The position numbers and the translations under genes were made by a program. The notes under the pieces were generated by a model. The model did not search any database and was not told the origin of the DNA. It saw only the letters and a program-made list of their open reading frames with translations. From Coffea arabica (lineage: Eukaryota > Streptophyta > Magnoliopsida > Gentianales > Rubiaceae), in assembly GCF_036785885.1 (NCBI RefSeq), contig NC_092312.1, positions 12,852,001 to 12,916,000 of the forward strand: a stretch of 64,000 bases of DNA. The letters run 5' to 3'. Numbering within the stretch: position 1 is the first letter of the stretch; every line of letters starts with the position of its first letter. Positions 42,920 to 64,000 of the stretch are shown here, piece by piece.

Positions 42920-45781
42920 AATGGCTCAACTCTCAAGTTAGTTTTGTGGGAGAGCACCACCGCTTTTGGACAAAATAACAAACAAGAATGGCTACTACTT
43001 GTACAGGAGAATGGTGATGAAAGTGAGAAGTGGACGACTGTCTATTGGTGTCTAATTAATGCATAGCCATGTTCAAGAAGGGAGAATCAAAACCCGTGAT
43101 GCCCGCAAAATTATTAATTCTGTTTCACGGATACACAGGGAGCAGATTTAAAGTGAGAATGTACTTTCCACATTGATGGAGGTGACAAAGGAAAATGTAA
43201 TGTTACCATGACAAAAGCGCAATTTTACAAGTTCATAAAGTCGTTTTTACCATTTTTCAGAAGCTTCCTTATGTTGAATTTTCATCCAACCATCTTGTCC
43301 AAACGTTTCTTCAAAGGGAAGTTGGATACCATGATGAAAAAGTTCAACTATCTAGCAGTCCTCGAGTGAATTACTGTTAAATTCACGAGAGATTTATTTG
43401 CCACTACTTAAGTGGCCTGCCTGATTACTTGAGCTTTATTTGTAACCATGACGATTAGGCCGTTTCTTCTTTTTGTACTCAGGAAAGTAGCTTTTGACTC
43501 TTAAACAACTGATTCGCATGTAGCATCTTTCACGGGCTTGCTGAATTATTAAACTTAATCCAGTTATATATTAAACTTCTTCTTCTACCCCAGATCATTA
43601 GAGCTTTTCTTTATCCCCCTAAACTTGTAGATATTAAAACTGAACATGGTCCTGAAGAAATTGCATACATGATGGTGATGTTTATTGGTGGAAAGCAGTG
43701 CGAGTTACTCAGTTCATAGCCTAATAAGATAGAGCCCTATTGAGATATTGGAACTTAATTAACATTGAAAGACAAGGATACATATCAATTAGACAGACTT
43801 CTTGGTCAGCAGCATTTGTGTGGTACGTGCGTTCCTCTTCCAGTTCTTTGCCTCATAATCTATACTATTTCTCCACATATTAAGTATGATATACTGGAAA
43901 GAAGTGCTCCGGCATCCAATTATATGCATGGTCGGGGTAAAACAAGAACCAAACTGCTGGTATTTTAACACTCATAACAGATGGAATGTGGCCGCTGCCC
44001 CCACTTCGCATGTGCTGATGTGCAAAGTGCAATAAGGGGGATCACTGGAAACCTGTTGTTCATACAGCCAATTGTTTTAGCTTGAAGATTTGGTGCCTTT
44101 GTTCGTTGTTATGTTGCTTTCATTGAGACTGACTTGCAACAGTCTACTCTCTCATTCATCATGCAATTGCCTTTTCCAACTTCATTGAATCATTGTAATC
44201 ATTAAGTGGATTGACGACTTTTTTGTGAGCTCAGTAAAAGCTGTGGATGGACCATCTGATTCTGCTCCATGTCCATACCGTACCTGTACTCTTGCATTCC
44301 CCAGCTTTTATTTTGCGCATCCATATCTGTCTAAACCTGAAGAAAGAGGACTGAAGACATGAACTGACTGACGCTTCAAAATGCTTGTACTAAATGAAGG
44401 ATGCGTTTAGTGATTTACACTGATCTCCTTTATTGGTGCAATCGGTTCAAATATTTACTTTTTTTTCCCCGGAAACGAGATGATTTTATTAATAAACTAG
44501 GCATTGTAATATTTGAACAACGACTTAATCAACTATACAAAGTGTACCACGACACTTAAGAAGTAGCAAAAGTTCTTTCCTCATCTCTGAGAATACTTAA
44601 TGCATAAAAGCTAAGCCTATTACTCCACAATATTTACTCCGCAAGTTGTAATTTTGACACGACTTGCAAAATGATCTAACGATAATATTTTTTTTTTATA
44701 GTGTTAATAAGAGATTTCGAACTTGAAACCTCTTACGTACCAGCAACTCATTTTTTCCTCCTCCAAAATTTATACATTAGTCTAATTAATGTGTGTTTTC
44801 AAACAAATTTTAAGTATATTAATTCACTAAAGCTACTTAAATAATAAAGAGTATCACTTAAAAAAATCATTCCAAACAAAGTAGACAGTTTACTGTTTTC
44901 CTAACCAAATAGATTAACCAAAATCTAAAAAATAGAAATTAAAATGAACAACAAACAATAATATCAAGAGTCAAGAAGTAGGTACCTAGTGGACTCCAAG
45001 AGGCCTCCAAATTTGTATCCTACATTTTTAATTTCTTCAGTCTAATTTCAAGATACACATGCTAAAATGAGTAGTGTTTTAGAAAAAAAAAATGAAAAAG
45101 AAATTATACTCAGTTCACGTCAAACTTATCTTCCACGTCTACGACGTCGTACCGGTTTAACATGCTGGATCCTCTCTCAAAATCAAAAAAGAATGCTAGA
45201 ATGGTAGTTGGAGGCTTCTCCTGCGTCAGCAGCTAATTGCATGCGCTCTCACTGTAATTCCTTCCGTTGGTAGCTTATCTTCAGGTAATTTTCCGATGTT
45301 GCAATTTCCTGCTCATGGTTTTGAATCGTTGTTTAATGGGTTTTTCTCTCAAGGTAGCATTTTATTTACTCATGTACTTTTTTGGGTTAAATCAATTCCA
45401 CTTCTGTCAACTGTTTGATGAAATTCCCCAACCATTTCTTTGCTTTCTATGCACCCATTTTTTTGTCGTTTACCCATATGTTACAAGACAGTTTGGCTTT
45501 CATTTCTGTGGTATTATGGTATATGGAGGTGGCAACGGTGACCGAACATGCAAGGGCATGTTGCTTTTTACGTGGTTTGTTTGGTTTTATCTCATTTTAC
45601 AAGCCCATCTCCCTGAAATTCATTGCAGTGTGGTGGGCTTCCTCTTTCATGCTAAATGAGCTGTTGAAAGATTTAATTTTTGCTGCTGCATTTTGTTTTC
45701 ACCAATGTATTTGCTTTCCCTCTTTTATCATAACTGGGAAAGTGAACTAAAATGTTATGGATGTTTTGCAGATAAAGGATA
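42920..45781. other. Divergent intergenic region between the peroxidase and ATP11 genes
   Basis: It holds the promoters of two divergent genes. A LINE 3' fragment lies at 44459-44660. Frames in the right part (45267-45750) have no recognisable product and may be leader or 5' intron sequence of the ATP11 gene. Confidence 0.4.
44459..44660 (-). mobile_element. LINE 3' end fragment, reverse orientation (second copy)
   Basis: Poly(T), then CCCCGGAAACGAGATGATTT and TATTAAT, read as a LINE poly(A) end on the minus strand. It shares the ctatacaa..gtg..ac.a.gacact block with 3781-3990. The 5' limit is not clear. Confidence 0.45.
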
Positions 45782-48700
45782 ATGCAAAGGTTAGCCAGGA
45801 GGGCCCCAAGGAGGACGTTATTGTGTGCAGTGGGTGTTATTCAAGACAATGTTTCACACTGTTTAGTTGCGAAACGATCATACAGTGCTGCATCTCTGCC
45901 AAAGCATATTGAGAAATTGAGAAAACCTGCAATTCCTAGTGATTTCTTGAAATGGAGTGGGCTTGGGTCCTATAGGACGTCGAAATTTGCTTCTGGGTTC
46001 AGTCCTCTGCAACCTAAGCCTTTGGAATCGATTATTGATATAAAGCGATCTAACAGCAAAACTCCAGAAGAACTTGCTGACATTTGGGATGATGTAATGC
46101 ATTAAACTGTTCTTGTGATTCTTACCTTCCTTGAACTAAAAACTTAGACTTTTTGATTTACCATAACTGGTTATGTTTATCATATGTAGAAAGCTGTGAG
46201 AAGTTTCATCATATGTCCAAATGATGCAATCACAAGTTGACTAATGACTCTTTGTTTATGATCCACATTTTTGTTATAGTCAGTAGATTTATTGTTTTAC
46301 TTGCTGTTTTATATCAGTATCACTTGGGAAGAGGTCACATTGGGGCATCAATGGACGCAAAGTTATACCATCTATTGAAGCAGAGAGCTGAAAATTGGTA
46401 ATCCATGTGCATGATCTTTCCTTTGACACATGTTTGTTCCTTAATCTCGGAAAAACTTTCTTATTTTTTTTTTAGCCGATATTTCGTGATTCCACTGTGG
46501 AAAGGAAGCGGTTACACAACGATTTTTTTTCAAGGTCAGATCACTTGTTACTTGCTTTTCAAGCACCACTGTTTATTTTTCGTCAACTCTTTTGAAATTC
46601 CGTCATCTATGGTGGATTATTAATGTGCCAGTCACATTCATTAGAGTGTTTCAACTAGCTACATTTCTATTCACTACATGGCTATTCTTTTGGTTCATTC
46701 AATATTGTTATTAAGTTTTTGTGAATTGGGATGGTTGATGCTCCATCAACCACGTCTCCTTTCTCATCCTGCAATTCAGTAAATAATCAATGTATATCAA
46801 AAGCATGTACCTGGATAGCAATATTTCAAGCTTGCAAAACAAAGATTAATGGAAGGGGATTATATAGGAAGACTGATTCATGCATGATTTGGGTTTTTAA
46901 CTCCAGCCAATAGTGATTACCATCTTATACTTCAGGTTCTTTTAGGTGGTAATCTGTTGCAGGGGAATCAAAGGGTGTTGAACTTCATTCTATTACAGTT
47001 TTATACGCGCTATTTATCTTGCGTTTCTAGTTGTAATACATTGTAAAGCTTATCTTTAATGCTCTGGTTCTTTTCACAAATCAATGTTTTAAATTAGCTT
47101 TCTTTCTTGCTTCCTGACTCCCCTTGTTTAAGAACTTTTTCATAAGCAATCACAATCAGAAGAAAGGTTGGCAGCATCTCCAAACATATTGACGTAAGTC
47201 ATATGGTGGTGGCTAGCCTTGGCAAACAATTTGCATTTTCCTTGGCTATAAAACATTTCATTAACTAAACTGGTTTTTTTTTTTTTCAATCAAACTAAAA
47301 TCTACACTAGCTTAGGATAAAGCAAGTTTATGCCAATTTCAAGATACATAATTCAGTTCAAATTTTCCTACTAATTCATATTTCAATTTTTTTTTCTGCT
47401 TCCTGATATTGGTAGAGTAGAATAATTGTTTTGTCACCACACCTGTTGCTCCATCCTCCCCAGTAGGAATGTCTTAGTTTGATTGGCCATGAGGTTTAAG
47501 AAATTGTTGAAGATATGTAAGAGTTTAAAGAGAAAATGAGGAATATGTGCAGTCCACTGGATTAGTTAACTGATGTTTAGAGCATTGCATGGAACATGTT
47601 GGTTGTACTACCTTCCTTCATTTAGAAAGTATTTGTTTAAGGAAAGTGGACGTTATTCTTGGACGGAATGAAAGGCAAGAAAAACATTTAAAAGTGAGAC
47701 AAAGAAATACTAATGGAGTTGTACTTACTGAGATAACATACTAGATGGTCACCTATCTGCTTGTATTTTGGAAGTTCAGGGGATGGCTTGTTATCTTTAA
47801 GCAACTTGTTCCCACAGCGTTAGCATACCCGCTGCTTCACAGCTGTTTTCTTGAAAGAGCAGGCTGCTTATGGATGCTATCTCTCTGACACCTTCACTTT
47901 GTCTTTAATTTTTTGCCTTGTGTTCTTCAGTTTCTTTTGTTTCGACATACCTCTTGCCAACAATGCTTTGAAGTTTGCTTTGCACAGTACATTATATAAG
48001 AAGTCTATCTATTGCATGTATGTTTTTCATATATCATTGTCATTCTCGTGCTTGATTGCCTGAAATTAGGATTGTGTGTCCTATTAAATTTTTTGGATAA
48101 TTCACAATGACCTTCAGACTGTTGCCTCTGTCTTAATACTTATGTGCATATTTGTTGGTGCTTAGGAAAAGCTTTTCAGCCCTGAGACTTCTTGAATATT
48201 TGTGTCTCTTTTAGCGGTATCTTTGAAGAGTTGTGAATAAGTTTGTCTCATTTACAAATGATGCAAAATTGATGTACTTTTCACTGGGAGTAAATATAGA
48301 TGTTTTCATTAGATTAAGCTGTAATTCTCAAGCTAGAAAAAACTTACCTAGAAGCCCAAGCCAAGAGGTTGTGCAGTATTTGCTTGATAAGCATTCGTAT
48401 TTCAACTTTCTAATTGGTGTGGTGCAGCCAACAAGCTACTCGTAATCATTACTACAAGAATTTTCTGTTTGTATCTATTATATGTTTGCAAGGCCTTGTT
48501 ACATGGCTATTTTCCTTCTGTTTTGTCCTGGCCATAATTTTTATATCATCCCTGTATATCAAGTCATTTAATCAGCTAGTATTGATATGACTATTTCATC
48601 TGTTGAAATTAATTTTGGAGTTTGTTTTCATTTTGCAATAGAGCACCTATATTAAGCAGGAAGTTTTTTTTTTTTTTTTAAAAAGAAAAGGTCCACTCTG

Positions 48701-49454
48701 AGATTCCATTTTATGTATTCTGTTGTCTGATGGACAAGATTAGACCATGTTATTAAGTTTTCTCTGAGAATGGACGGTTACAAAAATGGATTAGCTGATA
48801 TGCTAAGAAGTAGAAGTGAAGTCTTAATACATAAATGCAGTATTGGTAGCATATCAGGTATTTATAGGTTAAGGTAAACGTGGTAGTTTTGTATTTCTTA
48901 ATTTCATGTCATGTGTTGCCAATATACCATTCGTCAGTTACTTCAGTATTTCTTCCAATGATTTTAATTTTTATCCCATCTGCTCCTCTGCTGCCCAGCT
49001 TGAAAGAAAAACTAATTACATGATGATATCCTAGCTACCCTAAGACGACATTCTTATGTTTTCAGGATTCACTTATCTTTCAGTGGCCTTCATTGTCTTG
49101 AAAATGCATTTCTTTGGTCATCGCTTATTTATTGAACAATTTGATGCAGTGCAAATGCCACACATGATTTTCACTGGTCTTGAAGATTACAAAGCAAGAG
49201 GAACTCAGGCTGCTCCCTACTTCACTGTCTCTTATTACACTGAATTTGCAGAAAGCAAGGAATTGGTGCTTATTAGGGGTGATGTTGTGTTTACAAGCAA
49301 GCTCAGTGACTCAGAGGCCAAATGGCTCATGGAGACTGCACAATCATTTTACTTGAATGATGTCAGGTACAAGTTAGTTGAGCGTTTCAACAAAGAAACA
49401 CGTGATTTTGAGTTCAAGGATGTTTTGCAAGCATTGGAGATGCCAATTTTGTAA
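45782..49454 (+). CDS. Mitochondrial F1-ATPase assembly factor, ATP11 family
   Basis: Four exons: 45782-46093, 46318-46397, 46476-46534, 49150-49454, giving 251 aa. The first ~50 residues are rich in Arg, Ser and Ala with few acids (MQRLARRAPRRTLLCAVG), as in a mitochondrial presequence. The ATP11 domain follows: PEELADIWDDYHLGRGHIGA, the FVIPLWKGSGYTTIFFQ stretch, MIFTGLEDYKARGTQAAPYF and the C-terminal LVLIRGDVV segment. Family members bind free F1 beta subunits and promote assembly of the alpha3beta3 hexamer of ATP synthase in the matrix. Length fits the plant proteins. Intron 3 is 2.6 kb, much longer than the others, and holds no recognisable gene or complete transposon. All splice sites are GT-AG with matching phases. 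Confidence 0.92.
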
Positions 49455-49904
49455 GAGAAGTGAAGATGGAAACTTGAGCAAAAGAGCATGAGACCTGCAG
49501 CCGGATGACAAGCAACAGAATGTGAACACAAGTTTTGTATAATGTCATTATTAACTGCAGCTACAATGAGTTTTTTTTTTTTTTTTTTTTTTTGGTTAAC
49601 TGAAATCCTTCTTAGACTTGGAGATTTTATCTTGGAGTCCTACTTGTTTACTAAAAATACGGGAATGAAAATTACAGGACAACTTATGGGAGAGATGTGT
49701 CATCGTGTCCTAACCTCCTTGCGAAATAACTACCTGCTCGTATGTGCCTCGCACCTCGGATGCTGTCCTTGGAGTGAGTTTGGTGAGTGTGTTATTGTAG
49801 CAGTTATGCACGTTGCTAGGTTACTTAATACTGAGGCGATTCATGGGCAAACTGCATTTACTTGCACTATAGAGGAAAATTAGATTTTATCCAAATACAT
49901 GACA

Positions 49905-50078
49905 CTCTTACTAGTAGGATTTGAATTTGAAAAATTCAACTCAAATTCTGTCCAAATATATTGGATTGGGTATGAATAATAAAAAAATAAATTTTATTCA
50001 ATCCCATGACTTTTTTACTAGTAGGATCTGCATTTGAAAAATTCAACTCAAATTCTATCCAAATATATTGGGTTTGGG
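49905..50078. repeat. Diverged tandem repeat, 107-bp period
   Basis: CTAGTAGGATTTGAATTTGA at 49911 and CTAGTAGGATCTGCATTTGA at 50018 start two copies that both continue through AAAAATTCAACTCAAATTCT and CCAAATATATTGG. The second copy is cut short. Confidence 0.75.
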
Positions 50079-50631
50079 TTAGATCTGAATAAAACCTCAC
50101 TCGGAAGACGAAGCCAGCAGTCTTTCTTATCATGATTACATTACCAGTCCAATGGCAAAAAGGGTATCCAATGGCAAGATGGTCAAACGGCACCCCAAAC
50201 AAAAATACCAGCCATATAATCTTGAATCTCCACCGTTCAATCGCTCTGCACATGGCTGGAGAATTACGAAAATACTCACACACTGAAGATGCCAACGAGT
50301 GACCACGGAACACTGTTCATAACTCTATCCGCCCTTTTATTCTGCTGGGATTTACTTGATCTTGCCGAATGGATGGTAGATTATAGATTTATTTTCTTCC
50401 ATTCCAACAATTCGAATCAGGGTTTTTCTTTTCTAATTTTTCAGGCCTCAATTCGACATATTATTTTTTTCATTCATTCCCTTTCAGGATCAATCATAGT
50501 CTTTCAAATTTTATTGACTTTATAGCTGAATTCCCGTTTTATCTAAATGTATAAAAGATGCTAGCCGCACGCTTATCTTACTACATCTAAAGCGAGAGTG
50601 TCATTTAATGTATTCCCTAATCTAATCTTGG

Positions 50632-50831
50632 CTCTGTTTGGATCCCCTGTTTTTTAAATGTTTTTCAAATACAATAAAAATTTTTAAAAAGTACTCTAAA
50701 AACTAATTTAAAAATTAGTTTAATTTTTTTAAAAAAATTTTAAAAATATTTTTCTAAAAATATTCCAAAATATACTCAAAAAATAAATTCTGCTGCAGCA
50801 AAATTTTTCAAAAACACCCCCCAAAACAGCT
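50632..50831. repeat. AT-rich hairpin-forming MITE-like block
   Basis: The left end GCTCTGTTTGG...GTTTTTTAAA and, inverted, the right end GCTGTTTTGGGGGGTGTTTT are roughly symmetrical around many short TTTAAAAATT palindromes. This looks like a non-autonomous element, but no target duplication was found. Confidence 0.35.
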
Positions 50832-51263
50832 AATTATTTTTAAAGATAATTATATCATTTCAACTACCTATCTCACTGTAGGCTACATCTATCCTATATT
50901 TGTTGAATTAACCTGGGTTTTAGCATTTAAATATTCCAAAATACTACTATTCTCATATGAATTATGAAATAATTATTCACGCTTCAATCTTGTACATATA
51001 TAGTTCCAGACAATAAAAAGTAATCTGTGGAATTCAAGGACTAATCGAAGAAATGCACCCTCAAAGGTCAAAACCAAGAAATTAGTAGTAATATTTTTCA
51101 GAAAAAGAAAATCCTTTTGGTAATTTGCCAAGGTAAAATTTAAGAGTCGTAGATGTGGCAAAATTTGGTCTCTACGGTCTAGGAGACCAAACCTGCCTCA
51201 AGCTTTTACAGTTTGCAAATTCACTTCTTTCTCTGCTTTCCTCTTTCTTCCAGGGGACCGCCA

Positions 51264-51272
51264 CTATATAAT
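51264..51272 (+). promoter_or_regulatory. Probable TATA box of API5
   Basis: CTATATAAT lies about 210 bp upstream of the API5 ATG, allowing a leader of about 180 nt. Confidence 0.35.
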
Positions 51273-51478
51273 GCTCAAGTCTTCTGGAAGGTAATACTAT
51301 ACCGTCTCAATCTTCGCTTTCCACACTGTTCTATCCAACCAAATCAACCTCCGTTCAAATCGATACAAAATCTGTATTTTGATTCGACAAATTTAGCCAA
51401 TTCCTTAAACCTTAACCTTCATCTTTTCACACAGTCACGTAGTTAAATTAAGCAGTAATTTAGAAGCTCTGAAGTAAG

Positions 51479-54400
51479 ATGACCGAGAATTCCGACGAGG
51501 CCAAGGACATAGATGAGCTCTACGAGTACGGGGCACGCCTCAATGAAGCCAAGGATAAGACTCAGGTGCCCCCAACTTCTCTCCGATTTTTGAATTTTGG
51601 GGTTTTAATAATTTGCTGCAAGATTGAATTTTGACTGCGAATTTTGGTGATTGATATGAATGTGGTGTTTGTTAGCATGTGGAGGATTACGAGAATATAA
51701 TAAAGGCGGCAACCAGTACCAGCATTAAAGCTAGGCAATTAGCTGCTCAACTGATCCCCAGGTTCTTCAAGTTTTTCCCAAGTCTTTCGGTCAGTGCTGT
51801 AGATGCCCATCTTGATTTATGTGAAGCTGAAGAACTCGGGGTCAGCGTTTTCTTAATCTTAATCTCATCTTTTTTTTTTCGAAATTTTCTTATTGATGAT
51901 GATATTATACAATTTAAGTATATCTGATAGTGTTCAGTTGTAGATATTGTTCTTGTTGAACTCTTAGGCAGAATCGAGCAGAATGAAGGAGGAATTTTCT
52001 TAGTTAATTGCAACAATTATTTTCAGCAAGTACATGCTTAAAGTTGATATATATTTGAATGAAGCAATTTTTCAACTGTTTTTTTCTGCAAGTTCATAAG
52101 TAATGGTGGGAAAGATCACAATTTGGAACAGAGGAAGTGGAAAAGATTTAATTTTTTAAAATAGAATTTTAAAATGTGGTCAGCTGCATGATTCTGTTTT
52201 TGTTGAAGGCTTAGACTTGGTGCCTTGCTCAATTTAGCAGATATTCATTAGTTTTAAACTTTTTTTTTAATAGCCTGATACTACTAAACATCAAGTGTAA
52301 TGGAACTCAAGCAGCAGCAAGAGAAACAGTATTGAAATGCCTGATCTGTGGATTCCTTATGGTGTAGGACTATTTGGCAAAAAGATCAGGGAAACTATAT
52401 TGCCTTCTTCATAATTGACTTAGGTGGTCTATTTTCTGCATGATATAGCAGCAACTGGCTGGGGTAGGTGGTGGTTGAGCTTCAGCTTGTGTGTTTGGAA
52501 GATGGAGACTTTTATGATCTTGTTGAGGCAGAAGATAGATTTTATCAGTGCCGTCGTGTGCATTATCATGGAAGCTTTTGCAGTACTTTCTTTAAAGGAG
52601 TCTGTTCTTGTTCTCGTATAAAAAGTTCCAAATAGTTGGGAACCTGATCTATGTGTAAGATGGATACAGAATGAAATGTGGTGAACATCCAAAAAAATTC
52701 TTCTCATTCCTCAGGCTTATTACACCCTTGATTCCCTCCTGAGGATGCCGTTTTCAGATCCTTTAGCTGGCAGCATTTCACTCATGCGTGTACCTGCAAG
52801 TGAACAGTCTGATATTGATATGATTGTTGACACCCAAATTTTGTTGGTGTACCTTGCTTTTTAATGGTACACATCCACCATTCACTTGAGAAATTAGGGA
52901 AGTGGAGGTTGTTTGTGAATAAAGAGAAAGCCATGTGGAGAAAGAGGATTTGGTTTTCAATTAATGGGTTTTGAGAGAGGAGGATCAACATCTAAAGAAA
53001 TCAACATTATTTGTCAGTTAATAGATTGGAAACCTTCAGGAATGGATGGGAGGAGTTTAAACAACATATGCCAAAATGAATAAGCACGCCTCTCCATATT
53101 TTACCCACCAAAATGCTGCATGGCTAAGATCTTTGGGTAATTGGCATCCTGCAGCCTATTTCTAAAAGTAATTTGCTGTATCAGGAAGATATACATTTTT
53201 TGCAAGCATACATGCTGAGTCTGTTGAGTTGCAATTACTTGTTAGTGCTGAAGATAGAAATTGGCTTGGGTTGCATGTAGGAAGTTATCAGTGAAGATAC
53301 TATAACAGAATGAACTGTTTTTCTGTGGAAACATAAATTGGTGTCTGATGCTGCTATCTTTTAGGCTTGCTTTTTTCAGTCACGTAACAGATCATGAATG
53401 AATTCTCCTAAAAGGCTACATGTCAGTGGCTCTGGTAATGAGAATGAAGGGACAATTAATCAATTGCAACATTTTGAGAGAATAGGGCTCATGATCCACA
53501 TTGTAGGCGACTGATATGATGTTCTGAGAAGCTTCGAGCTAGATCAAAGATTTCTTTTAGAGTTGGAACATCTGCATGAGGTAGATTAGCGGGATTTGCA
53601 TTAATGTCCTTTTGCATTAATTTTGGTAGCATAGAGAAGGAGAGGAACAACAAAATGTATTGAAGGAGTTCAGAAGGCACAACAACAAGAATGTGACTCT
53701 GGAGAGTGGAGAAAACCTTTTATAATGCTCAATGTTCATTATCCTATTCAACATATGCTTAGGAGTTAAATTTTTGGGTGATCTGCCATTGTATTGCTAG
53801 AATAGCAGGTGATTTTTATTTCTTTCAATTTTTTTGTAAATGGGCTGCAAACCTTGCTGCAACCCGTTTTCTTTCCTTATTTTGTTTCATGAATCATGAG
53901 AAAGGTTTAATTGACTATCCATGAGCACTTGTCCATAAATTTGTTAGTTTTCAATATCAGATTCTATTAAACATTCGTGTGGTATCTGATGTGTTTGAAA
54001 AGTGTCGGATACGTGAAGTAATTTTGACTTGCTGTTATGGATACGGTTAAGAAGTCTGGGCAGCTTCTACTTACTCTCTCTCTCTCTCTCTCTCTCTCTC
54101 GCTCTCTCTCATACATGCACAGAGATTATATGAGCACACACTCATTTAGTTTGAAAGTTCGCATACAGGTAATTTTCCTTTTGCTTTGAAAATATTGTCG
54201 GGTTTGTTCTTTGATATGATTTGATGGCCTCTATAGTGGTTCTTATTTGCTTGCATATGATGAAATTTGCATAAGTGAATCTAAACTTTCTTCTGTAATC
54301 TCATAGTGCTTGTATGAACTGTGATGACACTCTTTTGTATTTGTTCCTAAATATTGTGCTTTTGATTTCCAATCAAATCTTGCAGGTTTGCGTGCAAGCA

Positions 54401-55652
54401 ATTCGTGGACTTCCTCTTTTCTGCAAAGATACACCTGAACATCTTTCTAAGATTGTTGATATTCTTGCCCAGCTCCTAACTGCTGGTAAATTTGTTTTTT
54501 GTTCTTGCCCAGCTCCTCACTGCTGGTAAACTAGTTTTTGTATTTGAACTTCCAGTTGTCTTTAATGTTGTTCATGTCTGATCTAAAAACATGGTTGATG
54601 CTTGTAGAGGAGAATGTTGAGCGCGATGCAGTACATAAGGCTCTTTTATCCTTATTGAGGCAGGATGTTAAAGGTACTATTGTACGATGCAACACAATAC
54701 TGATTGTATTGTGCTTTTGATTTCCAATCAAATCTTGCAGGTTTGCGTGCAAGCAATTCGTGGACTTCCTCTTTTCTGCAAAGATACACCTGAACATCTT
54801 TCTAAGATTGTTGATATTCTTGCCCAGCTCCTAACTGCTGGTAAATTTGTTTTTTGTTCTTGCCCAGCTCCTCACTGCTGGTAAACTAGTTTTTGTATTT
54901 GAACTTCCAGTTGTCTTTAATGTTGTTCATGTCTGATCTAAAAACATGGTTGATGCTTGTAGAGGAGAATGTTGAGCGCGATGCAGTACATAAGGCTCTT
55001 TTATCCTTATTGAGGCAGGATGTTAAAGGTACTATTGTACGATGCAACACAATACTGATTGTTTTTCTGTCTCTACTTTTTACTGGACAGTCAATACAGA
55101 ATAGAATGATATAGGTCTCAAACTTTCTATTCTATTTGATTTGAGAATGCTACATCTTTCTTTGATATGTTTCAAAGCCTAATTGGTATCCAAAGATGGA
55201 CCACAGGTTAGATACGGTTTCAGGATATCAGCTATTGGTGTAGCTCTTGATCGGTCTATGGTTACTGAAAATGATAATCACATTTAAATCCTTTTTTAGT
55301 TTTATTCGGTCCGAAAAAATACTAATCAGGAATAGAACTGCCTCCAGGATTTGGTTTGGTGACATACACTGAAACTACCTTCTTGAATTTGGAGCCTCAT
55401 ATTTATGTTTTCATAGTGTAGATGTTAGAATGATGCCACTGGACTAGCTTTAGAGGGTGTAACATTGTGCTTATACCTTGATGCTTTAGTTTCTATTTGT
55501 TTTCAGGATTCCTACTTTTGCTGTATATGAGTGATTGTATCCTTATTTTCTTGTGCTATGTAGAGAACAATCATGTGAAGTACAAGCTCATGAGTGATCA
55601 CTTGATAGAGTTTATTTCTTTAAACAAGTACACTTTGGTCAACTTCTGACTA

Positions 55653-55691
<39 letters not shown>

Positions 55692-58600
55692 GTGAGAAAA
55701 ACATACTCCAATGCTCAGACTTTAGTCGTTTGTCATGCTTCTTTGACTGTTGTGCCTGTAGATTCCACTTTTCATTGCAGTGGTCGAACTCAAGTCATGT
55801 AAGCTCCAAATTTTGTTGGTTGAAATACATGACTCTGTAATTCTATGTCGATTAGGTTTAGCTTGGTATTAGCATTCTTTACATTATATTATCGCAGATT
55901 GGTGTTAAATCTTACAACTTAGGATGAATGTCAGTAGGTTATGGTCCACTTTTGTTCAGTTGTCCATGGTTGTTCATTGTAATTTACGATTTTTCTTTTG
56001 TTTTTTGTGGGGTGAATATAAAAAGTTCTTGTTGCACTGTGAACATTGCCACTTAAACTGGCTTGATCAGCAGGCAAACGTGTATCAATGATTGGTTTCC
56101 TTGATCAGAAGGCACATGTATATGAATGACTGGTTAGCTGATACATACATATAACATATGGCTTTGACTTAATATATATGTTTCACTAGAAACTTCAATT
56201 CATACCTACTAGAACTTTGGAGTATGGCTCATGGCTATTAGAGTCTTAGGCTACACATTACAAGATGCGGTGATTGTTCCATTAGTTTGGGAGCTTTTCT
56301 CATATCATTTCACATTCAATGATAAAAAAACTCAAGCAAGGGTAATTGCTATGACCAATTCACATCAGAGTGATACCACTATGTTCGATGGTTTTGTAAC
56401 ATTGCTTGTTTATGTATCTTTTTATGAATATATTTTAAATGCTGTTTTAGTTTTTTTTTTTTTGGGAGAGAGGGGGGGTGGGGATTCCATATTATACTAG
56501 CACCTTGTTTGGGTCTTCGGTGATCCAGAGGTATTGTCTTAGAATTATAGAGATCATGCCGTATGTACAATCTTTAATCCATTGGTAAAAAGGAATCCCA
56601 TTGCAATACTCTGTTTCCGTCTAATAATTTGATATGTGGTCTTCTATCTTCTATATTTCCTTCTAATCTTAGCCTTTTTGGGGTGGGTGAATTGTTGTGT
56701 TTGGTTGAATCACTGCAATGGTTAACCACCACTCAAGATTTATCAAGTCGGTAAACTGAACTTTCTTTTGCAGCTTCTTTGACAGCCTTATTTAAGCACA
56801 TTGAGAGTGTTGATGAGCAGATGACTGATGAGAATCTTCGAGAGAGAACCTTAAGTTTTATCAGAGACAAGGTTGGGTGAAAATTACATGGCTCAGTATA
56901 TGAACTTTGCTGCTCTTTTTGGTTTTATATTTAATCAACATACTTTATTTTAGGTATTCCCTCTTAAAACTGAGTTGCTGAAGCCACCAGAGCTAATGGA
57001 AAGACACATGACTGATTTGATTAAAAAGGTACGTCTCTCTGTGTGTATTAATCCAATTGCTCCTCTGTTGAACCATAGAACTTTCAGTTTGCAAATTCCT
57101 GCCAAGCATGCAGCATTGATTATTAACTGCAATTCTTCTTTTAGACAAATTTTCTGTTTTATACCTATGGAAATTGCTGATATGTCTTCGTGTTGATGAT
57201 TGTAATGTTTTCAATATTAACAAAGGAATTTGCTAGGTGAGGACGAATAAGGGTGCTTATTGCAGAGCTGGTAGTCTGAATTGTTTGATATGATGATTTA
57301 AAAAAGGAAATAAAGGGTAAGAAACTGATTAGTTCTTTTTGCAGAGTCTACAAGATGTGACGGGAGCAGAATTTAAGATGTTTATGGATTTCTTAAAAAG
57401 TTTAAGCATATTTGGAGAAAAAGCTCCTCCTGAGCGTGTTCAAGAGCTCATTGAGATCATTGAAGGCCAAGCTGATCTTGATGCTCAGTTCGATGTAAGC
57501 AATTGCTCATTACCTGATGACATGGTTGACTCTTGCTGCAACCCCCCCCCTCCCCCCTTCAAAACCCATCTGAAAATAAATGAAAAGTTCCCTCAAAACA
57601 AGCATTCCAAATAAATATATGTCATTTATGGGCAAGTGTTATTATAATTTTTTTTGTTATTAATAATTTTTTGGGCTGACCATTATTAAGATCCTTAAGA
57701 GTGTGAAGAGCACATCAACTTACCATATTCATATTTACAAAACTTGAGACATGATTTTGTTGCCATATGTACATGGATGTCATTCACTGGAAGCAGATAA
57801 TCTTCTTGTAGACTTCTTTGATCCTTTTTCAACCGCATGGTTAAGGTTAACCTTTTTGTCAGATTGATGAAGAGAAGATACCATATACAATGCTTTCGAA
57901 GTGCAGGGGATCTTCATCGCTATGTTTGTCTGGTAGTTGAACTTAAAGATACTACCATAGCAATCTAGTGACTTAACAGAGTCCTGTCTACTATTTTGCT
58001 ACTTGTATGCGATATCCAAATGCAAGAAGAAAAGGCTAACTCTTACAAGATGGCTTCTGCCAAACTACTGCATTGCTGAAATGTTGTCATGTTATCTGTA
58101 GTTTATTGGGTGGGTTTTACATTTCACATGTTCTTTTCATCCTACGTTAAATTTTCCTTTTCCCTGTGGACATTTTTGTCATGATGCCATCTGAATCTCA
58201 CTATTTTTCTCATATAATTAAGCTAGTTTTGTAACCAAGGTTCTGACATTTTCAAGTGAAACTCTTGGCCATGCATAGAAGCAATAATTCTTTCTTGTTC
58301 CCTTCCCATCTTATGCACCTATGCTTGGTTTTGTAGTATAATCTATCTACAGCAATTCTTGAAATGATGGCTTCTAAAATGCAGGTTTCAGATGGGGATC
58401 ACATTGCTAGGTTAATAGCATGCTTGTTTATGGCTATCCCATTTTTTGAGGTTTGTGCTATTGTTTACCTTGATGGCCCTCTTGAGTCAATTATAGACTG
58501 GTCTGTTGAGCTGAAATACTGTTTCCCATGCAGAGGGGTGCATCCAATGGCAAGTTTCTTAATTACTTGAACAAGCACATTTTTCCTGTTTTTGACAAGG

Positions 58601-60506
58601 TAATTTTGCATTTCCTAATGTAGCAGGATTTAGCTGTTTCATTAACAATGTCTGGCTGTTCATCTGATATTTAAATGCTCTAAGAGGAAATCCCACTACT
58701 TTTTTATGTGCCTATAGTGGTTTGTCCTTGCATAATCTGCTGCTGATCCCCATCTTTGCAGTTATTATTTGAGAAATCATTAGGATATGCTGTTGCGGAA
58801 TGAGATTGCACTTTCTTGTTGCCTGGTTTTCTTTTTGGCTGGTTGGATTATTGAAGTGTATTGCTTGAAGTGAGAAAGAATGAAGTCGAAGTATTTAAAA
58901 AACTGTCTTAAGGGGTTTCAATGTTTGTCTGACTTCCAACTCTGTAGCTAGAGTAGAGCAGTTGCGCATAGTTGAGATGGTTAGAGGTGAATGCAGTTTG
59001 AACTGAAGACATTCTCTGAGATGCCCTTCAAATAATAGGTCTACTTAGTGGTTTGAATTTGGTCTGGCCTCATGAAATCTGAGCATTCGAGGCACTTGTT
59101 TCCAATCAAATTGGCTATTCATTTGTTAAGAGCCTCAGCTTCCATCCTTACATGAGCCTTGATTACTTTACCCAGACCCCTCCAGCATACAGTATTGGTA
59201 GCCTTTATCTTCTCTAGTGAATTATTCTGATAACTATATTTAGTGGATTCAGTTAGCTCATGTCATAAACTGATATACAGAAATTCTTGCTGTCATTGAG
59301 CGCTGAATAACTTAAGTAGAGGCAGTCTGCTTATTATTCACTTGTCATGACATAATTGCCATTCTTTAAGGACTATACATATGCATCAACCTTTCGATGA
59401 AGAGTGGTGACCATGCTGATGAAACAGATTTGTAGTTGTTTGGCATGTTCTGGTTGGTAACTGGGGGAAGTCATGAGCTAAATATATGTTGTTGTTTTGC
59501 ATGATTGTCTAAGATGGAATAAGAGCACTTTGATGGGCAAATTTATCACCTTATCGCTACGGATATACTTCATGGATTCATTCCCATATAGAAATTCATC
59601 AAACATTTCTGCTGTTTACCAATCTGTTTAAACTTACCTAATGGCTATTTGTTTTTTTCACGTCCAAGTATAGATTCCACTCTATTGTTTGAAATCTTCT
59701 CTTAAGTTCTTTCTTGGCAGCTTCCTGAAGAATGGAAAGTTGACCTGCTCAAGGATCTTGCTGAGAGTTCACCTTACACCACACCTCAGGATTCAAGACA
59801 AATCCTTCCCTCTGTTGTTCAGCTTTTGAAGGCAAGTATATAGTTTACGACTTATGGAAGACTAATTTGTTACAGCTTGTAAAGCACCTAGAACATAATA
59901 TATGAGACCCAAGCATGGTTGGAAAGAAAACATTTTTTCTTCTCTCCCCAAATGTCTCCCTCTCTGTCTAGCTATATGCATCTATTATAAAGATTTTTAT
60001 CTTTATACATTCATTGTGGCCACAGTCTTGTTCATTCTGAGTCTTGATTTATTCTCCTCTAATACTAGTATGAGAGGCCTTCAATTTACAGTATGAAGAA
60101 TGAGTCTATTCCCTTATAACTATGTATAAAAATACTGCTTATTTGATTGATTGGATATTATTTCTTTTTTTCAGAAATACATGCCTATAAGAAAAACAGG
60201 AGAAGAGATGAACTTCACTTATGTCGAGTGCTTATTGTATACATTCCACCATTTAGCTTACAAGGTCACAAAGTCTCTCTTTCCTTCAATTTCTACTACA
60301 TTTTCTCCATTTACACTGCTCATTTTTTTCTTCTTTTCCTTTAAATAGGCACCCAATGCCACCAACAGCTTGTGTGGTTACAAGATTGTGACTGGCCAAC
60401 CTTCTGATAGGCTTGGGGAGGACTTCTCAGAGTATCATAAAGAATTCATAGAACGGTAGTTTGTTGATTGTAGCAGTACAATATTTTGATCCTTACCTCC
60501 CTCCCT

Positions 60507-60545
<39 letters not shown>

Positions 60546-61502
60546 CTGTGAATATAATGCATAAACTGGGCAATTGCCTATCATGTATAGTTTTGTGACT
60601 TCCTACACGAGGCATGCAATTCAGAATGAAGAGGAAAGATAATTACTAGTCTACTGCATTCAGTAATTGTACAGAATTGGGACAAAATTGCTCAGAAAAG
60701 ATCAATATCATGTGACAGAGAGCATCAGGAAATCTTCTTTCTGTAGTTAGAAATGTCTTGTAGTCTACGAGTGAAGAGGGACTGTGAGTATAGAGCCATT
60801 TATTCTTCAATTTAATTTAATACTAAACTCTAAAATGCAATTTATTTTAGTGCATATATTTGATAACTGTTGCTTTGTGACATCCTTTGACAGTTGAAGC
60901 TGAAAATATTCAGTAATTCTTTTCCTCTTCTGCAGAGCTTATATGTGTTTGTCTGTGTGGGTTTGGGCATGTGGTATGAGAGAGAGGGAAAGAGGGGAAG
61001 GAGGTTTGAAAGTTGATGTTCATTTGTTTCCATTACAGCTTAAATTGTGTGGAAGAGCTAGCTAGGGCTACCATGAAGAAATTAACTCAAGGAATGGCTG
61101 AGCACAACAAAGCATTGACGGCTGCTACTTCTGAGGAAGCAAAGGCCAGCATAGTGAGTTGACCAAGCCAGAGTTAAGAGTTATTTTCTGGATTATTTAT
61201 GTCTTAGTGTGTCCTAATTGATTTTTCTTTTTCCCTTTGACCAAATTTCAGAAGACACAGAAGCAGAATACCACAACTGGGTTGCGTACTTGTAACAACA
61301 TATTGGCTATGACACAGGTGAATGGGGATAAAATTCCTGTAGACTCCTGATATAGAAATACTTTAACTAATGCTCTTGACAATTTCTTGATTATGCAGCC
61401 ACTGCATTCAAAATCACCATCATTTATTGGTGACAAGAGAATTGACTTATCTTGGAAAGAAACTAAGAAACTTTCTCCTCCATCAAACACTCCTGCAGCC
61501 GG
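51479..61502 (+). CDS. API5: Apoptosis inhibitor 5 (API5), 3' end outside the window
   Basis: Exons: 51479-51565, 51676-51840, 54386-54485, 54608-54673, 56774-56871, 56954-57028, 57345-57494, 58385-58450, 58534-58599, 59721-59831, 60175-60264, 60349-60455, 61039-61153, 61252-61317, 61399-61502, about 488 aa so far. Exact second copies of exons 3 and 4 lie at 54741-54840 and 54963-55028. Landmarks of API5 are the start ELYEYGARLNEAKDK, VQAIRGLPLFCKDTPEHLSK, VFPLKTELLKPPELMERHM, GEEMNFTYVECLLYTFHHLA and the GLRTCNNILAMTQPLHSKSP end. The family is an all-helical HEAT/ARM-like nuclear protein; rice API5 acts with a DEAD-box helicase in tapetal cell death. Intron 10 is GC-AG (AAG then gcaagt). The visible end, PAAG then gtatgt, is a splice donor, and the basic GKRP-type tail of about 65 residues is missing from the window. 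Confidence 0.9.
54074..54110. repeat. (CT)n microsatellite in API5 intron 2
   Basis: CT repeats with one G interruption. Confidence 0.9.
54352..55061 (+). repeat. Perfect 355-bp tandem duplication containing API5 exons 3 and 4
   Basis: Units are 54352-54706 and 54707-55061. I see no difference between them by eye. Each includes the end of intron 2 with its acceptor, exon 3 (100 nt), a 122-nt intron, exon 4 (66 nt) and the start of the next intron. The intron between exon 4 of the first unit and exon 3 of the second would be only 67 nt. Confidence 0.93.
55655..55689. repeat. (AT)n microsatellite in an API5 intron
   Basis: Alternating AT between the duplicated exons and exon 5. Confidence 0.9.
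60496..60542. repeat. (CCCT)n(CT)n microsatellite in API5 intron 12
   Basis: CCTCCCTC units run into pure CT repeats. Confidence 0.9.
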
Positions 61503-61800
61503 GTATGTTTGGAACTGCAAAGCTGTCATGTCAAGATTGTCTAGCTCAACTACATTTTTGGTTTAGAGTTTTTGATGTTTTCCGATCATATAAATGTGGA
61601 CTGTGAGTTATGCGGTGATCATTCTTGAAGTCCTGGTAATGAGTAGTGTGTTATACTTGGGAGAGAATCCTGGGTACTTGAGAAAAGGGTGGAACATTGG
61701 CAAAGAAGGTGGAAGCAAATGCACAATAGAGATTCTTTGACATTCACAATAGTAAATAGTTGAAGATTTCTGTTTCTCCTTTCTAAGGTACAGGCATTAC

Positions 61801-64000
61801 TTATAGAAAGAAAGACCTTTGAAGCTTAGTACAATGTAAATATGAATTGAACTGCAGCTCCTGTTTTAAAACATCAAGCTTTGCATGAAAGATTCGAGTG
61901 AGGAGGTCCGGCCTGTTATGTGCTTCATCTGTTGAAAGCATGAGATTCTTTATCTCTGGCCATGAAGGATTGCAAGTCATTGTAATGAATAAATCTGGTT
62001 TGCCAAATTTCTGGACCAAAGCCATAGCATCAACATATCTCCTTTTCATGTCTCGAGGGCCTCCTATGAATGAAGCTGGAAGGACTACTCGTTGGCCTAC
62101 TTTTGAAGCTTGGCATTGACCTGTTATAACACTATCCATTACGCCTTGCAGCTGCTCTCTCCTTATGAATTCTTGTTTGCTTTTATAGTAATCCAATCTC
62201 TGACTTTCAATTTTGATATACATATCCACAACATATTGCTGAAGTAATCTACCAGTGTTAAGTATGTTTGGAGAATATTTGTCTCTGATCTGCAATTTAT
62301 AAGCATAATATTCTCGCATTGACACAAATTCACCATTGTTTTCAGGATCATTGGAAACTGAAAGTTACAAAAATAAGGTATAAGTAACTGGTTTCACTAT
62401 ATTATTCTCGCATTGACACAAATTCACCATTGTTTTCAGGATCATTGGAAACTGAAAGTTACAAAAATAAGGTATAAGTAACTGGTTTCACTATATGAAG
62501 TTGCATACATTGATAAGATATAGGATCATGTGAGACTAATCGAAGATAATGCGAGTAGTATGTTCTCAAAACAAGTAATTCAGCATCAGTAATTATGTAA
62601 GCAAGATGTGAGCAATGCACATAAGTAATGTATAAGACATTTGCATATAGATAATGTATTAGTTATTCATCTTAGGAATACCTTCTTCTTCAGCAGATAT
62701 CATGTGTTCAGCAGATTTGAAATTGGTGAGGACAGCAGTAGGTTTGTTTCTCTGAACAGATCTTTTTCTCTTTTTGGCATTTTCTCTGACAAATCTTCTG
62801 ATTCCAGGATGCCAGCCTGTTTCACCAAGTGCAAATAATAGTGGATATTGGAGAGGATCGTAACAGCCATAATAGTACTGGACGAGGTGATCCCTTCCTT
62901 CTTTTGTATAAATTTTAATGTGTCTAGCATAACTTGTTCCTGAACTCTCTGTTTCTGTCCAAAGAGCTGCAACCTGAGAAGCTGTTGGATGGTTGAATAC
63001 TCGTTGATCATTCTGTGAATGTGATTTCAGGACTATCTGATATGAATCCAAATTTGGAACGTTTCTTAGACTGCGCAGAAAACATGCGTATGGATTAGAC
63101 TTCATGACTTCCATGATCTTCATTACTATACTCTCTGTTAATCTTTCTGAAACTGCCATTCTGTTTTGAAGCTCATGATCTGTATCATGAAAATACAGTT
63201 GCAGATATAATCCAGATCCTCCATGTGGAATATGATCTTTGATAAAGTGATAGCTTTGTCCTTGAACTTTGAAGGTATAAATGCCATTTGTTCTCTTGCA
63301 AAGTGATTTATCATAGTGTACACCAAAGGAAGTAAAGGCAAACATATTATTATATGTTCTGACATATGTACGAAAGGATAAAGCTTCATCAGAATGACCA
63401 GTGAACAATTCTACAAGAATATCTGGCAATTTATTCTCATGGAGAACTACTTGTCCGTCTGAGCAACAGAAATTGGGTGTCTCAGAGTGCATTTTTTTCC
63501 CTCCACAGTACTGACAATCAACTTTTGCAGGTAATCTATCTGCCTGATGATTAATAAATTCGAGTGCATGAACTCCATCAACAGGCTGATTACCTATAGA
63601 TTTAGCAATTAGTTCAGCTAAACTAAAGGTTGGAACTGAACATAAGGAGGTAAAAGAGGAACAATCAGTGATTTGTAATCTGTACCTCTGTTTTTTTCTT
63701 TTTGTTATTAATAGCTTTCACTTGTTTCGCTGATGAATGCTTTTTGCCTGAATGATTCAAGTATATATAATTAGAAGCAGAAGCCATAAGCTTTATACAT
63801 GTAGTGGTAGCAATATGATCAAGGTATTTGTATGAATAGAAGTGGTTTGAGGTTACATAATGCATACTGAAGTTTTCTGATCAACATCAGAAGCAATTAA
63901 ACAATTTAATATATTTTAATGAGATGGTTATTTGATGGATTTTTTATGCCAAATTAGTTTACAACAATAGTGAGAAATAAGAAACTTGATAGTACACAAA
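61801..64000 (-). mobile_element. Truncated Helitron (rolling-circle transposon), 5' coding part
   Basis: The minus strand encodes the N-terminal part of a plant Helitron Rep/helicase in two exons. The first runs from about 63690 to 62682 and holds a zinc-finger-like CQYCGGKKMHSETPNFCC and the region around HGGSGLYLQLYF, ending AEEE. An intron (62681-62358) follows, then an exon to 61801 with VSMREYYAYKLQIRD, LQQYVVDMYIKIE and the Helitron-like signature DLFITMTCNPSWPE. Family-like sequence stops near 61850, before the HUH nuclease motif; the helicase and the 3' CTRR-hairpin end are not seen. The copy therefore lacks the parts needed to move. Its 5' terminus is outside the window. It lies beyond the last visible API5 exon, probably within the API5 terminal intron. 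Confidence 0.85.
62309..62496. repeat. Perfect 94-bp tandem duplication across a Helitron splice acceptor
   Basis: Units 62309-62402 and 62403-62496 look identical. Each contains the minus-strand acceptor AACTTTCAG followed by TTTCCAATGATCC, so a second copy of the acceptor and exon start lies inside the intron. Confidence 0.9.

Follow-up and report, generated by a model that had tools for sequence, protein, structure and literature searches.

An exact 355-bp tandem duplication of API5 exons 3 and 4, most likely real, in one homoeolog of coffee, with a predicted loss of reading frame on full inclusion

In the intragenic tandem exon duplications described by Kondrashov and Koonin (2001) and Letunic et al. 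(2002), whole exons are copied side by side with pieces of their flanking introns inside one gene, a description that also fits the coffee locus presented here. As far as these accounts go, the coffee locus differs from their cases in that two exons were copied jointly, as a pair whose length is not a multiple of three, and in that its copies are identical, so that using one or the other adds no isoform. In Arabis alpina, PEP1 is likewise reported as a plant gene with a partial tandem duplication; there, exon 1 and the promoter are duplicated and separate start sites are used, whereas coffee API5 repeats internal exons behind one promoter and full inclusion of these breaks the frame (PMC3527215). 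In a human tandem duplication of EHMT1 exons 2-10, the transcripts described show the junction between the copies and, within the repeated exon, a premature stop, and nonsense-mediated decay of the joined copies was deemed rather unlikely in that account; EHMT1 is a 145-kb disease allele, however, whereas the coffee duplication measures 355 bp and lies in a probable polyploid with an intact homoeolog (PMC4209064). FLM/MAF1 of Arabidopsis provides a plant precedent for the choice of one of two neighbouring exons, but the exons described there differ in sequence and in interaction motifs, while those of coffee API5 are identical (PMC3266260). The duplication reported here is thus an ordinary kind of event with precedents in PEP1 and EHMT1. 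The locus itself was absent among the matches listed in literature searches on tandem exon duplication in plants, on exclusive splicing or decay and on intragenic duplication, and a search for Coffea with API5 returned, going by titles, no paper on this gene.

The window, by which we mean the whole 64-kb stretch of DNA analysed (C3:12852001-12916000), carries a gene whose exons 3-5 match PF05918 with an E-value of 4.4e-36 and a score of 125.3 bits (curated cut-off 27.4). Further exons match the same family between 51673 and 60456, and the protein encoded by exons 1-15 matches human API5 (3u0r) at an E-value of 5e-55. The Pfam matches and the modelled exons bear out the API5 identity and the exon numbering proposed in an earlier sequence-only reading of this DNA. 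The exon model was built by hand from homology and splice signals, and its features, together with those of the duplication, are as follows.

51479..61502, plus strand: API5 exons 1-15, from homology and splice signals, with the ATG at 51479
54352..54706, plus strand: first 355-bp unit, composed of 34 bp from the end of intron 2, exon 3a, intron 3, exon 4a and 33 bp from the start of intron 4
54386..54485, plus strand: API5 exon 3a, 100 nt, phase 0 on entry
54462..54539, plus strand: nested 40-bp tandem repeat in the first unit, doubling the exon-3 donor
54608..54673, plus strand: API5 exon 4a, 66 nt, phase 1 on entry
54674..54740, plus strand: hybrid intron 4a-3b, 67 nt, made of 33 nt of intron 4 and 34 nt of intron 2
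54707..55061, plus strand: second 355-bp unit, with exons 3b and 4b, identical to the first
54741..54840, plus strand: API5 exon 3b, 100 nt
54817..54894, plus strand: nested 40-bp tandem repeat in the second unit
54963..55028, plus strand: API5 exon 4b, 66 nt
56774..56871, plus strand: API5 exon 5, the acceptor for exon 4a or 4b

The two units stand in direct tandem at 54352-55061 and agree at 355/355 bases, as had been claimed of two identical units holding exons 3 and 4: the period-355 array is exact. An identical run of 356 bases (54352-54707 against 54707-55062) sets the unit at 355 bp with a 1-bp (T) ambiguity of the breakpoint. All four exons (3a, 4a, 3b and 4b) have an AG acceptor and a GT donor. 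As in a tandem exon duplication, therefore, the copies are adjacent and direct and comprise whole exons with their splice sites, and a close relative of the locus, C4, holds the single-copy state. A scan for exact tandem runs (period 60-2000, run of 60 bases or more that also spans 0.6 or more of the period) returned from the 64-kb window this array and one 94-bp array at 62309, and from 45.5 kb of C24 the 355-bp array as the sole run; there was none in 80 kb of C4, in 20 kb of C3 past the window or in 10 kb each of C9 and C10. Exact runs being so scarce in the scanned parts of these contigs, the 355-bp array is not a chance occurrence. A plasmid search with the unit gave no match. When a single unit is used, the frames of C3 exons 1-15 join with no other stop or frameshift, which is consistent with a recent event or with continued function. 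We note that the modelled exon 10 has a GC donor (AG/GCAAGT, at 59832-59833), and that the same holds in C4.

A genome search with the 355-bp unit found seven places: two on C3 and two on C24 at 100%, one on C4 at 88% without a 40-bp stretch, and a 95-bp part of exon 3 at 86% on both C9 and C10. Judged from these matches, C9 and C10 appear to hold a second API5 pair. We call C3 and C4 homoeologs on account of their collinearity across the window and of a genome consistent with allotetraploidy; the comparison of contig pairs covered these two and, beyond them, the API5 matches on C9 and C10. With two units in C3 and one in C4, the duplication belongs to one homoeolog, and a single unit is the simplest ancestral state. 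The C4 gene has an open frame of 563 aa over 16 exons, from which the C3 protein differs across exons 1-15 at residue 13 only (E13K). Two coding substitutions (51515 and 57473) separate the two genes over these exons, in addition to a silent C/A in the gapped end of exon 3; an argument about selection from these differences was rejected, as they are too few. The remaining carrier of the array, C24, is a contig of 85,510 bp that overlaps C3 by 16.5 kb and is identical to it base for base over 51059-61857. Over the approximately 5.7-kb end that corresponds to 45320-51058, the two show 42 differences, 40 of which are single-base indels, as expected of raw read error. This identity and these read-like indels rule out C24 as an independent third gene; it is likely to be a redundant contig or the true continuation of C3.

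The age of the duplication was judged against the distance between the homoeologs, which amounts to 47/3791 noncoding sites, or 1.24%, within 2 kb of the array. Had the units arisen when C3 and C4 split, this local rate predicts about 4.4 differences between them over 355 bp and 2.3 over the 189 noncoding bases of the unit; the zero observed has a chance of 0.012 in the first case and of 0.096 in the second. The corresponding chances at the whole-gene noncoding rate (59/8580) are 0.087 and 0.273; the local rate is preferred because the 3' third of the gene is without any substitution. The 95% upper limit on the divergence between units, 0.85% over all sites, equals 0.68 of the local C3-C4 distance. 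With the species split placed at 4-6 million years and polyploidy at 350-610 thousand years in the published account (PMC11018527), any age as far back as a few million years agrees with the identity of the units, which is compatible with a duplication before or after polyploidy. The sequence-only reading had concluded that such units must be very recent, kept alike by gene conversion or misassembled, which does not follow where the homoeologs themselves differ by just 1.24% nearby; on the same ground, the identity does not compel us to assume either great recency or conversion between the units. Moderate youth is favoured, and conversion, while possible, is not needed to explain the identity.

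The nested 40-bp repeat is found in each of the two C3 units, C4 having a single copy, and on that evidence it predates the 355-bp duplication. It doubles the exon-3 donor, with GTAAAT at 54486 and GTAAAC at 54526. Three substitutions and one gap separate its own two copies. This exceeds what should have accumulated after C3 and C4 split (chance 0.003 with the whole-gene rate, 0.014 with the local one), so the repeat may go back further and have been lost from C4, or may have formed with errors.

Exons of 100 and 66 nt give a pair of 166 nt, which is not a multiple of three, in agreement with the earlier claim that the pair is out of frame. Translation of the 3-4-3-4 form reads GLRASNSWTSSFLQRYT before a TGA that is exactly the 18th codon past the 4a-3b junction, where a stop within 18 codons had been predicted. 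Sixteen exon combinations were followed as far as exon 15, exon 16 not having been found on C3. Three of these remain open (3-4, 3-4-4 and exon 3 alone) and 13 stop early, at codon 157 in 3-4-3-4, at 135 in 3-3-4 and at 155 when the 67-nt intron is retained; 3-4-3 also ends early. The second donor of the 40-bp repeat yields an exon 3 of 140 nt, and the five forms beginning with it stop at 131 in four cases and at 162 in one. As exon 4 measures 66 nt, the set of in-frame forms is wider than one exon 3 with one exon 4, to which the sequence-only reading had confined it: that form is indeed open, but so are 3-4-4-5, with 22 additional residues, and exon 3 alone, with 22 fewer.

We lean towards the explanation that API5 on C3 acquired the 355-bp duplication after its split from the C4 lineage and is now a homoeolog of reduced output or a null, tolerated by virtue of the intact C4 gene. 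The event would have been an intragenic tandem duplication with breakpoints in introns 2 and 4 that have 1 bp in common, suggestive of end-joining or template-switch repair. It would have copied all splice sites along with a branch-point-like motif, such that 3-4-3-4 is probably the default RNA, at least in part. This RNA would stop at the TGA in exon 3b with many junctions downstream, an arrangement expected to favour nonsense-mediated decay, while some transcripts probably retain a single copy of each exon and yield the normal protein. The resulting loss of C3 output would be buffered by C4 and its open 563-aa API5. Decay is not a given, since it was called rather unlikely in the EHMT1 case. 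The locus offers a clear natural example of a tandem exon duplication that is out of frame, very probably in a polyploid crop, where the intact homoeolog serves as an internal control, and it could reveal whether plant splicing takes in the two copies together, leaves one out or yields RNA destined for decay.

Much depends on the intron between exons 4a and 3b, whose size of 67 nt is as the sequence-only reading had put it. YTNAY is the branch-point pattern, and the hybrid intron has two such motifs, 21 and 38 nt from its 3' end, in addition to GT and AG ends and an A+T content of 66%. The exon-4 donor agrees with the donor consensus at 5/8 positions, as do five other API5 donors, one more scoring 4/8. 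Because the intron has these splice signals and the donor is on a par with others of the gene, full inclusion of 3-4-3-4 is expected in at least part of the RNA. Its length is below that of the 14 other modelled API5 introns, all of which measure at least 81 nt; validated introns of 56 bp are mentioned as reported in a published account that names no organism at that point (PMC6310983), and the hybrid may therefore be spliced.

The same intron is the starting point of the chief competing explanation, under which the C3 locus stays productive: poor recognition of the 67 nt, or skipping of the inner exons, would leave one exon 3 and one exon 4 (3a-4b, 3a-4a or 3b-4b) and hence the normal protein. 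The open 3-4 frame, the shortness of the intron relative to the 81-nt minimum of the others and the modest donor score all speak for it. Yet the sites of the two copies are identical and give the splicing machinery no basis for a choice, the donor score is shared with or exceeds that of six others in the gene, and failure to remove the intron brings a stop at codon 155. We regard a fully productive locus as possible but rather unlikely. The sequence-only reading had gone further in proposing that the pairs serve as mutually exclusive exons. Such exons are sequence-diverged copies that give different isoforms; here the copies are identical over 355/355 bases and would encode the same protein, and the proposal is without direct support. 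Most of its RNA checks, moreover, would not discriminate, as junctions 2-3, 3-4 and 4-5 read alike from either of two identical copies. The only diagnostic features predicted for RNA are 4-3, 4-4 and 3-3 junctions or a retained 67-nt intron, and a silent marker in exon 3 tells the homoeologs apart (A at 54478/54833 in C3, C in C4).

That the second unit is an artefact of assembly seems improbable. The units are identical, the assembly shows an oddity nearby, a fork at 61858 between C3 and the unplaced C24 despite the di-haploid state of the published line, and the two contigs may share reads. However, two contigs carry the array and are alike base for base over 51059-61857, which is support rather than proof, and the assembly is very probably the published Arabica one, for which hifiasm is reported to have been run on HiFi data with library fragments of 20 kb, the di-haploid ET-39 being the reference individual (PMC11018527); such fragments would far exceed the 711-bp array. 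The 355-bp array thus most likely reflects a genuine tandem duplication within the gene of one homoeolog. Skipping of exon 3b alone, which would give 3-4-4-5 and lengthen the N-terminal helical repeat region by 22 residues, is in frame, but nothing in the DNA favours the loss of 3b alone and a single added helix in a HEAT-type array may not fold, making this outcome very improbable. Equally hard to credit is a regulated poison cassette, in which inclusion of 3b-4b leads to decay and the inclusion ratio sets the API5 dose from one subgenome after polyploidy, perhaps by feedback, API5 being linked to mRNA export and splicing-associated factors: the frame logic suits it, as do the reported ties of API5 to Acinus, a component of the ASAP complex, and, in rice, to homologues of UAP56 (PMC10813780), but the duplication is absent from C4 and no regulatory element was found, an Rfam scan of 50000-64000 at gathering scores giving 0 matches.

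The 3' end of the C3 gene is a place where the assembly merits checking.

61858..64000, minus strand: non-homologous stretch within the last API5 intron, starting with a truncated Helitron replicase-like frame

At 61858, C3 departs from its homology to C24 (near 68985) and C4 (near 12624376), with CTGCAGC at the junction common to the C3 and C24 continuations. A PF14214 (Helitron replicase-like) match lies within 61801-62361 on the minus strand (E 5.5e-41). Beyond this breakpoint, C3 also holds the 94-bp tandem duplication, at 62305-62496, whose copies are 98% alike. On both C24 and C4, exon 16, which encodes the glycine- and arginine-rich tail, lies just past the 61858 point. When 2.9 kb of C24 including this exon were searched against the genome, 41 matches were listed (40/2170 candidates scored): two of full length, to C24 and C4, and 39 short ones of at most about 155 bp, three of which lay on C3; among these listed matches exon 16 was not found on C3. 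Likewise, megablast of 22 kb of C3 beyond 61858 gave no match to 45.5 kb of C24 or 80 kb of C4. The junction is either a real rearrangement of C3, with C24 as the alternative form, or a wrong fork in the assembly, in which case the true gene continues as in C24. The absence of the last exon from C3 could accordingly reflect an assembly fork rather than a loss from the gene.

Immediately upstream, over 58319-61857, the 3537 aligned sites of C3 and C4 are free of substitutions, against about 44 expected from the divergence nearby; two single-base length differences occur in this stretch. Past the 61858 point, C24 and C4 differ at 77/4995 sites. The 58319-61857 stretch looks like a tract of homoeologous conversion or exchange, and larger homoeologous exchanges have been reported in Arabica (PMC10805892, PMC11018527).
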